DNA of 64,000 bases. Source: Thermococcus gammatolerans EJ3. GTDB taxonomy: Archaea > Methanobacteriota_B > Thermococci > Thermococcales > Thermococcaceae. The notes beneath the pieces are model-generated. The model had not been told where the DNA came from, did not search any database, and worked only from the letters and a program-made list of their open reading frames with translations. The stretch spans positions 1 through 64,000 of the forward strand of contig NC_012804.1 of assembly GCF_000022365.1 (NCBI RefSeq), in the 5' to 3' direction. The translations under genes were made by a program, and so were the position numbers. The first letter of the stretch is position 1, and every line of letters starts with the position of its first letter. This document shows, piece by piece, positions 25,887 through 29,475 of the stretch.

Positions 25887-26081
25887 TTGATTATCGAGAC
25901 GGCCATTCCCTTTGAGGAGCTTGAGGAGATAAGGCGAAAGAGCGGGGCAGAGGTCAAGCTGACTCTTCTCGGAACCATCGAGAGGAACGGGATAGTCCTC
26001 AATCGGGTTCTCGTGGAAGGCCATCCAGAGGAAATCGAGCGCTTCATGGGGAAGCTTAAGCTCGCGAGAGCCGGCGGTTAG
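25887..26081 (+). CDS. Small hypothetical protein
   Basis: 64 residues from a TTG start, beginning MIIETAIPFEELEEIRRKSG. The alternating pattern (IETAIPFEELEEI, VKLTLLGTIERNGIVLNRVLVEGHP, EEIERFMGKL) suggests a small alpha/beta fold, possibly ferredoxin-like. TTG 25887 is chosen over GTG 25878 because AGGTG ends 6 bases before it. No function is known. Its promoter has a strong palindrome, so expression is probably regulated. Confidence 0.65.
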   Translation: MIIETAIPFEELEEIRRKSGAEVKLTLLGTIERNGIVLNRVLVEGHPEEIERFMGKLKLARAGG

Positions 26082-26096
26082 TTTGCGCCCCAAACT
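26080..26096. promoter_or_regulatory. Palindrome upstream of the first membrane/regulator module
   Basis: AGTTTG-CGCCC-CAAACT is a perfect six-base inverted repeat, just before a TATA box (GGTATTTAAAGGC at about 26104-26116) for the gene starting at 26144. This position suits an activator, or a repressor that blocks TFB; the winged-helix protein two genes on is a candidate binder. Confidence 0.45.
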
Positions 26097-26143
26097 TCCG
26101 GGCGGGTATTTAAAGGCTCACTCAAACTTTTCCCGGTGGGAGC

Positions 26144-26713
26144 ATGGAGGAACTTAGTGAAGCTCTAAAGGCCATCGAGAGGGAGCTCAACTTCGCGAAG
26201 AAGGCGTATAGAGCGAGCGTTTTCCTCTACTGGGCGTGGGCGATGCCCGGGGTTTACCTCCTCGCACAAATCCTGTTAAAGTACGCCGGGATTGGTGAAG
26301 GAAGCGCCATCCAGTGGCTTTCGCTGGCAGCAGTCGTGGGCTTCATCGTCGAAGAGAGAAAGACCTTCAGAAGGGTTATTCAGCTGGAAGAGGCCCTGGA
26401 GCACATTGAGGAAACGCCCAGGGGTTACGTTCTTGCCCAGGTTATCGTGTGGCCTCTCTCGGCCCTGATTGCCAGCATGTACACCGAGAATGATGGCCTG
26501 TGGATGCTGGTCTTCATCGGGCTCGGCCTGCTCCTCCTGACGGGCGTTGAGTTCATCTTCACTGGAAAAAGGGACTGGAAGACAGCGCTGGCAGGGGTGA
26601 TACTGCTCTCCTCGACGGCTCTCTGCACGGGCTTTGGCTACGCCGTGATGGCCGTTGCATTCGCATTCTCGCTCACGGCTTACCTTCACCTGAAGGGGGC
26701 AATGAGGGAGTAA
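26144..26713 (+). CDS. Four- to six-helix membrane protein, module A
   Basis: 189 residues. An amphipathic N-terminus (MEELSEALKAIERELNFAKKAYRAS) is followed by about five hydrophobic helices. It is a clear relative of the protein at 28551-29171, which begins MEEVSELKSVLERVEG and has the same layout. Each is followed directly by a winged-helix regulator. The function is unknown; a membrane sensor or partner of the regulator is a possible role. GGTGGGAGC before ATG 26144 supports the start. Confidence 0.65.
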   Translation: MEELSEALKAIERELNFAKKAYRASVFLYWAWAMPGVYLLAQILLKYAGIGEGSAIQWLSLAAVVGFIVEERKTFRRVIQLEEALEHIEETPRGYVLAQVIVWPLSALIASMYTENDGLWMLVFIGLGLLLLTGVEFIFTGKRDWKTALAGVILLSSTALCTGFGYAVMAVAFAFSLTAYLHLKGAMRE

Positions 26714-26714
26714 C

Positions 26715-27011
26715 ATGCTCGAAGAACTGGCGAGGCTCTCAAGGTCTCCGCTCGGCAATCCGACGAGGTTAGCCATAGCGCTCTACCTGCTGTCGAGGGA
26801 AAGGGCGACCTTCGTGAGCCTGAGAAAAGCCTTGAAGCTCACCGCCGGAAACCTTGAATTTCACCTGAAGACGCTTGAGGAGGCCGGAATCGTTAGGACG
26901 TACTACGGCTTCGGGAGGAGGCCGAGGAAGTTCGTCGAAATAACCGAAGAGGGAATTGAAGAGCTCAGGGAAGTCCTCAAAATCCTGCGGGAGGTGACCG
27001 GGGATGATTGA
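26715..27011 (+). CDS. Winged-helix transcriptional regulator, module A
   Basis: 98 residues, a compact winged helix: LGNPTRLAIALYLLSRERAT, LRKALKLTAGNLEFHLKTLE as recognition helix, and a wing RPRKFVEITEEG. It resembles ArsR/MarR-like HTH_34 proteins of Thermococcales. It starts one base after the membrane gene stop and overlaps the protease gene by 8 bases. The paralogue at 29176 is also paired with a membrane gene. It probably binds DNA as a dimer at its own promoter. Confidence 0.82.
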   Translation: MLEELARLSRSPLGNPTRLAIALYLLSRERATFVSLRKALKLTAGNLEFHLKTLEEAGIVRTYYGFGRRPRKFVEITEEGIEELREVLKILREVTGDD

Positions 27012-27627
27012 GTTCGCGGTTGCCCTTACCCTGTGGCTGTTGATTTTATCCGCTTCAGGGACCGTTGCCACCCTGGTCGCCGGGAGATGGGCGAAAAAGG
27101 CCGGCTTCGCGATGCAACTGACGATGTTTTTCCTCTCGCTTGCGGTGATCGAGCTCATGGGCGGGCCCCAGAGGTTTGGACTCGTTCCCGATTTCAGATA
27201 CGTTCCCCAGGCAGTTGTTCTCGGCTTTGGTGCCTCGCTTATAATCAACCTGCTCGAAGGTAATCCCTCAGTTCCGATGGAGGAGTTCATGCCCGAGGGC
27301 GTTGAAAGGCTCGTTCTTCTCCTCATTCTAGCTCCGCTGGGAGAAGAAGTCTTCACGAGGGGGCTCATCGAGGGTTATATTTTGGGCTACGGCCATTTTT
27401 GGAGCGCAATACTCTTTTCGGCTCTGCTCTTCGCCCTTCCCCACTGGATGGCCTACGAAGGGAGCAAAAAACGGAAGATTGTTGCTGTCGGGGGAGCCTT
27501 CGTTCTCGGCTCGCTGGCCGGCTACCTCTTCGCGCTTGGAGGCATAATCCCGGCAATCGTGCTTCACTCCTCGGCGAATTTGGCGGGACTGATTGTCTTA
27601 AGGTTTAAAGAAAAAAACGGAAACTAA
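27004..27627 (+). CDS. CPBP-family intramembrane metalloprotease
   Basis: 207 residues, about six helices. The family motifs are present: LGEEVFTRGLIEG (EExxxR, about residue 114), LPHWMAY (His) and IPAIVLHSSANL (His/Asn). CPBP (CaaX-like, Abi) membrane proteases cut prenylated or small membrane peptides. It overlaps the winged-helix gene by 8 bases, so regulator and protease are co-expressed. Substrate unknown; the adjacent membrane protein is a possible target. Confidence 0.85.
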   Translation: MIEFAVALTLWLLILSASGTVATLVAGRWAKKAGFAMQLTMFFLSLAVIELMGGPQRFGLVPDFRYVPQAVVLGFGASLIINLLEGNPSVPMEEFMPEGVERLVLLLILAPLGEEVFTRGLIEGYILGYGHFWSAILFSALLFALPHWMAYEGSKKRKIVAVGGAFVLGSLAGYLFALGGIIPAIVLHSSANLAGLIVLRFKEKNGN

Positions 27628-28385
27628 CCGGACTTTTCTGGCTTCTCTATCTCAACCCTTCCCCTTATCAGCCTGAAAGTATAACCCTCAACACTCGGCT
27701 CAAAATCGGGGAGCGGTGAGCTCCTGACAAAGAACTTCTCGACGCCAAAGTTCTCGGTGGGCTGGAACTCTATGACGTACTGGCTGTACAGGGACATCCA
27801 GGAAACGAGCTCATCGGAAGCGCGGCTCCGGTTGAGGAGGAATATGTTGAGGGGCCTCTTCCTCTTTTCCGAAATTCTGGCGCGCTCCTTGAGGGCCATG
27901 AGCCTCTGAAAGACGCGGATGAAGTTCTTCTCACCGAGGAGGAAGGCCATTCCATCAACTGTAACGTCTATTCCTACCGGCCTTCTGTCGCCGATCCGCT
28001 CCGTGAGTACGCGCCGGTAGAGCCTGTTGTACTTGGGGAGGAACGTGCTCTCATCTATGGTCGGGTCAGTGTAAACGTAATCCTCCGAGTACTTGAGGCC
28101 GTAGAAGGAGGAGAATATGTCCACGACCGCGAGGTCTCCCCTTCTTCCGAGCTCGTCGATATCGAAGTTTACAGCCCTGAGCTCCATACGGAGGGGTGTA
28201 ATCGGAAGAACTGAATCGAGGATGACGCCAAAGTCACCCATACCTATCCTGCGCCGCACTATCTCAAAACCGAGCGCCCACCCCCGCGAGTACGTCGTGT
28301 AAATTATCAGGAGATTGCTGTCCTCGAGGAGACCCCCTCCAAGGGCCTCGTCGAGCAGAGGAATACCTGTGCTCAGCAATTCCAC
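27624..28385 (-). CDS. KaiC/RecA-like protein without a Walker A motif
   Basis: 253 residues. It begins like KaiC-family ATPases (MELLSTGIPLLDEALGGGLL) but the next segment, EDSNLLIIYTTYSRGWALGF, has no G-x4-GK-T/S, so it is unlikely to bind ATP in the usual way. The rest (AVVDIFSSFYGLKYSED, GIDVTVDGMAFLLG) keeps the RecA-like strand order with a DxT in the Walker B position. It may be a regulatory or structural relative. GTG 28385 is preferred over TTG 28391 because GGTGAT is then 5 bases away. The end overlaps the convergent protease gene by 4 bases. Confidence 0.7.
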   Translation of the reverse strand: MELLSTGIPLLDEALGGGLLEDSNLLIIYTTYSRGWALGFEIVRRRIGMGDFGVILDSVLPITPLRMELRAVNFDIDELGRRGDLAVVDIFSSFYGLKYSEDYVYTDPTIDESTFLPKYNRLYRRVLTERIGDRRPVGIDVTVDGMAFLLGEKNFIRVFQRLMALKERARISEKRKRPLNIFLLNRSRASDELVSWMSLYSQYVIEFQPTENFGVEKFFVRSSPLPDFEPSVEGYTFRLIRGRVEIEKPEKSG

Positions 28386-28486
28386 ACCCAATCACCAATT
28401 TGATGATCATGCATTAAAGTATTTAACACTAACTCCCCAAAGTGTTCAAAGAAAGGCCTCTCTGATAGTACTCGTAAACCATTGTG

Positions 28487-28501
28487 CTCTGAGATTCAGA
28501 G
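28487..28501. promoter_or_regulatory. Palindrome upstream of the second membrane/regulator module
   Basis: CTCTGA-GAT-TCAGAG is a perfect six-base inverted repeat, about 8 bases before a TATA-like GCTAAATAAGC (28511-28521); another CTCTGA copy is at 28460-28465. It matches in placement, but not in sequence, the palindrome before module A. Confidence 0.45.
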
Positions 28502-28550
28502 AAACAATCGGCTAAATAAGCGGTCAGCGTAACATCCAATGGTGAGGAAA

Positions 28551-29171
28551 ATGGAGGAGGTTAGCGAACTGAAGAGTGTCCTTGAGCGTGTGGAGGGCAG
28601 GCTGATAGCCGCTGGAAAGATGTACGGGGCGATGAACTTCGCGGTGTGGCTGGCCATAATGCTCCTGTACTACGTCATGCTGGGCATCTTTGATATTTCC
28701 TGGCAGTTCAATCTAATCTACTGGCCGCTGGGCTTTGCCGTTGCAATGGTCTTCACGGGGAGAATCTGGAAGAGACTTAAAAGGCTCGGAAGGGTTACAG
28801 GAAGGGAGATCGAGAGCTCTCCCCTCGCGGGGATCCTCATAGGACTCTCCTGGGCAACCGGCATCGTACTCGGCTGGGTCATCGTTCCAGACCTGAACCC
28901 CGGCATCACGGAGGAGGCCAGCCTCGCAACCGGCTTCCTTACCTTCATAGCCTTTTCAGTCTTCGCAATGTGGCTCGTTATGGCGGGCTTTAGCCCCAAA
29001 AACGGCGAGCGCGAGATAATCCCCGCGTTCCTGATCCCGGCACTCGGGATACTACGTTCCACCGGCATGGCAGAGGGAGCTATAGCCTGGGCCGGCTTCG
29101 TCGTCGGACTGGGGTTTTCGCTCACCGTGCTCTGGTACCTCTATTCAGCATTCAAAGCAATCGAGCGGTGA
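28551..29171 (+). CDS. Membrane protein, module B (paralogue of 26144 gene)
   Basis: 206 residues with about six hydrophobic helices after an amphipathic N-terminus MEEVSELKSVLERVEGRLIA. ATG 28551 is chosen because GGTGAGG stands 3 bases before it and the N-terminus then aligns with the module A paralogue; ATG 28539 is less likely. The function is unknown, but pairing with a winged-helix gene is kept in both copies. Confidence 0.65.
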   Translation: MEEVSELKSVLERVEGRLIAAGKMYGAMNFAVWLAIMLLYYVMLGIFDISWQFNLIYWPLGFAVAMVFTGRIWKRLKRLGRVTGREIESSPLAGILIGLSWATGIVLGWVIVPDLNPGITEEASLATGFLTFIAFSVFAMWLVMAGFSPKNGEREIIPAFLIPALGILRSTGMAEGAIAWAGFVVGLGFSLTVLWYLYSAFKAIER

Positions 29172-29175
29172 TAGG

Positions 29176-29475
29176 ATGGAATCGCTCAGGGAGCTCACGA
29201 GAAACCACTTCCTCGGGAACCCGATAAGGTTAGGGATCATGCTCTACCTCCTGCCAAGGGGAAAAGTTCTCTTCAAGGAACTCCTCGGAGTTCTTGAGGT
29301 AACCCCCGGAAACCTCGACTCCCATCTAAGAACCCTCGAAAAAGCGGGCTACGTAAAGCTTTACAAGGTCTTCGCCGACAGGCCGAGAACGGCGGTAAGG
29401 ATAACGGAGAAGGGGGCGGAAGAGACGGCGAGGTACCTGAGGGCCCTCAAAAGCGTGCTTGAGGGGATGGGATGA
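29176..29475 (+). CDS. Winged-helix transcriptional regulator, module B
   Basis: 99 residues. FLGNPIRLGIMLYLLPRG, LLGVLEVTPGNLDSHLRTLE and DRPRTAVRITEKG align throughout with the module A regulator (LGNPTRLAI, TAGNLEFHLKTLE, RPRKFVEITEEG). Same family, probably a different operator because the recognition helix differs at several positions. It starts 4 bases after the membrane gene stop with GGTGATAGG before the ATG. Confidence 0.82.
   Translation: MESLRELTRNHFLGNPIRLGIMLYLLPRGKVLFKELLGVLEVTPGNLDSHLRTLEKAGYVKLYKVFADRPRTAVRITEKGAEETARYLRALKSVLEGMG

Follow-up and report, generated by a model that had tools for sequence, protein, structure and literature searches.

Paired membrane protein and winged-helix regulator operons in Thermococcus gammatolerans: the TFB-RF1 switch and a sister copy with a shifted operator

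The window, which is the whole stretch of DNA analyzed here, comprises the first 64,000 nucleotides of contig NC_012804.1 of Thermococcus gammatolerans EJ3. Within it, two operons of the same build lie close together, each with a gene for a membrane protein, a gene for a small winged-helix regulator and a palindrome in front of the promoter. This raises the questions of how the two operons are related, what they might do, and how each regulator would recognize its own site.

Two operons and their promoters

The operons are referred to as modules A and B, and their features are listed below.

26080..26096, no strand: A operator AGTTTG-N5-CAAACT, a perfect dyad overlapping the stop codon of the upstream TIGR04140 gene
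26107..26112, plus strand: TATA box of the A promoter, TATTTA, with no A in the seven bases upstream
26144..26713, plus strand: Amem, membrane protein of 189 aa with about six helices (AF2 mean pLDDT 84)
26715..27011, plus strand: Areg, winged-helix regulator (HTH_34) of 98 aa, TFB-RF1 paralogue (Pfam PF13601, E=6e-17)
26856..26858, plus strand: codon of Areg residue E48 in the recognition helix (44-56), covarying with operator base 3
27004..27627, plus strand: CPBP (Rce1-like) intramembrane protease (Pfam PF02517, E=4.5e-14; motifs EExxxR, FxxxH and HxxxN)
28487..28501, no strand: B operator CTCTG-AGATT-CAGAG, the TFB-RF1 binding motif (TRBM) defined in PMC5937170
28512..28519, plus strand: TATA-like box of the B promoter (CTAAATAA), from the promoter alignment
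28551..29171, plus strand: Bmem, membrane protein of 206 aa, counterpart of PF1089; a longer start at 28539 is possible
29176..29475, plus strand: Breg, winged-helix regulator of 99 aa, TFB-RF1-type, with D48 in the recognition helix (PF13601, E=1e-20)

The first-pass annotation had described two paralogous pairs in the same order, and this was borne out. Both modules consist of a membrane protein gene followed by an HTH_34 regulator gene, and the membrane gene adjoined the regulator in all genomes where both genes were read. Areg and Breg share 49% identity (E=1e-25). The likeness of Amem and Bmem is weak with 27% identity (E=0.001), and a single family model recovers both of them. A KaiC-like gene on the opposite strand separates the modules. 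The CPBP protease, previously noted behind one of the copies, is indeed present with its domain and all three motifs and forms part of the A operon; its start at 27004 overlaps the 3' end of Areg at 27011, and it is also found downstream of most A modules in the loci of relatives.

The complete A dyad reads AGTTTG-CGCCC-CAAACT, and it shares with the B dyad a common architecture of five-base half-sites around an N5 spacer, the half-sites being CAAACT in module A and CAGAG in module B. The palindromes were thus rightly described as perfect, different in sequence and placed just upstream of TATA, while the spacers, given earlier as N5 and N3, are both N5. The distance to TATA is 11 bp for A and 10 bp for B in the window. 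Across genomes it was 11 bp in 20 of 20 A loci and in 61 of 73 B loci, the other 12 lying at 10 or 12 bp; the script placing the dyads slightly prefers 11 bp and fixes the N5 spacer, and the sites are also legible by eye.

Dyads with 6-bp arms are common by themselves in the window, occurring 1.8 times per kb, so that palindromes mean little unless they are conserved. The perfect A dyad occurs only once in the 2.05 Mb genome of the window, as does TCTGANNTTCAGA. Of 94 Thermococcaceae genomes, 13 contain the strict A operator and TATA pattern, each a single time and at the A operon, and the control pattern yielded one match overall across the same 94. In G020 and G045 the strict pattern precedes only a remnant or a contig-end part of the operon. 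The B pattern occurs a single time in each of 58 genomes, almost always at a B operon, with a control near zero. Conservation of the palindromes before orthologues, the point on which the earlier reading was to stand or fall, therefore holds for both modules, and an origin of the palindromes by chance is ruled out by it.

As the seven bases preceding TATA lack A, the A promoter carries no VRAAA-type BRE, and together with the common promoter layout this suggests the same mode of action as for B. The control promoters of the window are too few to call the A and B BREs unusually weak. Extra exact AGTTTG-N5-CAAACT dyads with other TATA spacing occur at L281 (G054:C54:7907-7923) and L284 (G064:C241:679-695). 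These genomes hold two dyads each, 4458 bp apart, of which one site per genome was read, and the extra dyad of G054 lies directly before a rubredoxin-like gene. Both extra dyads probably belong to another regulator.

Module B as the TFB-RF1 system and module A as its paralogue

Mechanisms have been described for few archaeal activators, and TFB-RF1 is one of them; its operon with PF1089 in Pyrococcus furiosus was reportedly treated by Ochs in 2012. Besides a membrane protein, the pf1089/tfb-rf1 operon codes for the activator TFB-RF1. This activator binds TCTG-N5-CAGA in front of a weak BRE and TATA, recruits TFB, and switches on its own operon as well as the ABC exporter pf1011/1012 (PMC5937170). 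The motif is conserved across Thermococcales as TCTGAANTTCAGA (PMC5937170).

Judged by its sequence features, the second pair (28551-29475) is this already known system. This identification draws on the gene order, the operator, the second target and the relationship to PH1061 rather than on a comparison with the PF1088 sequence. The TRBM of module B, TCTGAGATTCAGA at 28488-28500, is one base away from the 13-nt consensus and stands at the fixed distance to TATA. Outside the window, a PF1011-like ABC exporter ATPase gene (G000:C1:1602349-1603236, minus strand) of the same genome is preceded by TCTGAACTCCAGA and a TATA box, with the TRBM at 1603290-1603302. A TRBM before the PF1011-like exporter was also present in many other genomes and missing in several without the regulator, although exporter operators are kept in G034 and in the incomplete genome G051, neither of which yielded a regulator. 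Published work establishes DNA binding, TFB recruitment and autoactivation for the B type in P. furiosus, and by analogy they would apply to Breg.

Module A occurs in about 20 Thermococcus genomes. It does not carry the TRBM TCTG-N5-CAGA; AGTTTG-N5-CAAACT takes its place with unchanged spacing and position. In the regulator tree, the 23 A rows form one clade with a support of 100/100, apart from the B-type rows, which makes the A regulators paralogues of TFB-RF1 and not orthologues. Copies of the A1 subgroup occupy the same genomic place as the window copy, and the A2 subgroup is located elsewhere. The dN/dS of the A genes is low (0.11-0.25), indicating that they are kept. The sequences support a duplication with a shift of operator specificity, and on this basis module A appears as an undescribed sister copy of the TFB-RF1 switch with a naturally shifted specificity; the main text of PMC5937170 makes no mention of paralogues of TFB-RF1.

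A third paralogue, "C", was identified in two genomes of another genus (L047 and L048 in G092 and G090), where the operator is GTTTG-N5-CAAAG, residue 48 is E, and a normal B module is present in the same genomes. In G020 (L087:2073-2280) an in-frame deletion has left a fusion of Amem residues 1-9 with the wing half of Areg. The bulk of Amem and the half of Areg that binds DNA are lost there, and since the CPBP gene is retained along with the operator, CPBP may be useful by itself. Broken membrane or regulator genes were also observed at L060 (G032), L117 (G028) and L108 (G019), which suggests that modules are often lost.

Operator base 3 and regulator residue 48

Module A has A as the third base of the half-site (CAAAC) where module B has G (CAGAG), and the recognition helices, taken as residues 44-56 from the structure model, differ between A and B at residues 48 and 49. 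Residue 48 was E in 15 regulators, K in 1 and D in 1 at CAA/CAA operators, D in 65 and N in 1 at CAG/CAG operators, and D in 4 and E in 2 at hybrid operators, these counts coming from related sequences and hence not from independent events. The A2 subgroup combines hybrid dyads with mostly D48.

A/B ancestry dominated an MI ranking over the whole alignment, and the covariation was therefore examined in three contrasts: paralogue C vs B, the Pyrococcus-group G004 (K) vs its sister G006 (D), and A2 vs A1. Residue 48 is the sole column of 98 to change in all three, where about 0.15 would be expected. Within the A clade alone, Fisher's test gave p 0.005, uncorrected for relatedness. Two exceptions were found: L121 pairs D48 with CAA/CAA, and in G008 (L249) the regulator has D48 but the exporter promoter carries CTTTG-N5-CAAAG. 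In the ArsR relative NolR, a residue at the beginning of the recognition helix makes base-specific contacts (PMC8960804), so that a base contact by this part of the A and B helices is plausible. The earlier suggestion that operator specificity diverged with the recognition helix is supported by this covariation, and residue 48 is the candidate that would set the specificity.

Membrane proteins and the proposed switch

The membrane protein family was confined to Thermococcaceae among the 115 genomes of the phylum searched. Neither Pfam nor the PDB fold search returned a relative of the Amem and Bmem family, and no plasmid relatives of Amem were found. Among 14 residues invariant across A and B, 10 fall in the first 38 positions, and Amem combines a conserved N-terminal helix with a fast-changing transmembrane body. 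In module A, the window and G024 are 97% identical in the promoter and 87% identical over codons 1-25; the identity falls to about 50% in the body and is 82% in Areg, while G065 has the same body as the window. Along the Bmem gene, the nearest relative changes from G062 to G032 and back, and shuffling gave p ≤ 0.0002 for such switches in both A and B. Regulators at least 85% identical yet with bodies less than 50% identical were found in 12 of 28 pairs for A and 24 of 82 pairs for B. The mosaic bodies extend over 26219-26710 and 28656-29123 in comparisons with L122, L065, L094 and L060, and the switches are sharp. Exchange of the body by recombination between a fixed N-terminal helix and a fixed regulator is supported by these alignments. 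The body would act as the sensing part.

The best explanation, and in our judgment a probable one, is that each pair works as a TFB-RF1-like switch which activates its own single operon and is gated by a membrane sensor, with A insulated from B. A regulator dimer would bind a YTNTG-N5-CANAR-like dyad about 11 bp in front of TATA and a weak BRE, recruit TFB and thereby turn on its own membrane-gene/regulator operon, and the B regulator would additionally drive the ABC exporter. For Areg, binding to the dyad and activation are proposed by analogy. Its insulation from B would come from the change of the half-site from CAGAG to CAAAC together with that of D48 to E48, and its output would be its own operon and the CPBP protease, which would replace the exporter as extra output. 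The membrane protein would most likely keep the regulator inactive via the conserved N-terminal helix until the variable body senses a presumed membrane-active compound or stress. TFB-RF1 is barely expressed from its own operon, and a plasmid copy of the regulator alone led to a 54-fold rise (PMC5937170), which fits a restraining membrane protein but also a simple shortage of regulator.

Three other explanations were weighed against these insulated, autoactivating switches. Modules A and B might be cross-wired, with regulators binding each other's dyads or heterodimerizing on hybrid sites, as the identical layout, the common CA-N-A core and the one A subgroup with hybrid sites of one CAGAG and one CAAAC half would allow. 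This is unlikely, however, given that genomes with both modules keep distinct half-sites, that the recognition helices differ at the two residues named above, and that the exporter keeps B-type sites even in A-bearing genomes, e.g., G000, G032, G021 and G065. Less likely still is that Areg is an autorepressor like SdpR of Bacillus subtilis, which the membrane protein SdpI pulls off DNA. Areg is likewise a small ArsR-like winged helix partnered with a membrane protein, but a dyad upstream of BRE/TATA is in the activator position in this lineage, the membrane proteins have no Pfam match to the SdpI family, the match to the SdpR model is weak (E=0.027), and the closest studied relative, TFB-RF1, activates (PMC5937170).

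That the palindromes end transcription of the preceding gene or fold into a hairpin in its RNA, instead of serving as operators, is scarcely credible, despite the overlap of the A dyad with the TIGR04140 stop codon. This reading is ruled out by the dyad position, which is fixed to TATA and not to the upstream gene, and by the varied upstream context, as B dyads hold their place behind several neighbor types and even within the last part of a CPBP coding region; a B-type dyad was also footprinted as a binding site in P. furiosus (PMC5937170).

In module A, nature provides a paralogue whose operator has shifted, together with a hybrid intermediate and one residue that may set the specificity, so that the divergence of an archaeal regulator and its operator could be tested with a handful of substitutions. 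The mosaic bodies suggest that the membrane protein is a diversifying sensor, with the N-terminal helix as its coupling part. More tentatively, the modules could represent modular archaeal receptors that recombine their transmembrane sensor body around a constant coupling helix, regulator and operator. One circuit could in this way be refitted repeatedly to new signals such as competitors' membrane-active toxins, with duplicate circuits separated by a change of one residue and one base.

Among known systems, SdpR/SdpI also joins a small ArsR-like regulator and a membrane receptor in control of their own operon. It differs in that SdpR represses and in the position of its operator, and Pfam gave no sequence relation of Amem or Bmem to SdpI. 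The closest solved structure to both regulators is PH1061 of Pyrococcus horikoshii (PDB 1ub9), matched by Areg with a TM of 0.91 and 45% identity over the fold match and by Breg with E=2.6e-35; residue 48 is D in PH1061 and E in Areg. The gene order of membrane protein and then winged-helix regulator is common to TFB-RF1/PF1089 (P. furiosus; Reichelt 2018, PMC5937170) and both modules, and module B is like that system in all sequence features tested. Module A, for which the strict operator and TATA pattern gave no second target, differs from it in the half-site CAAACT, in E48 and in CPBP as the third gene.
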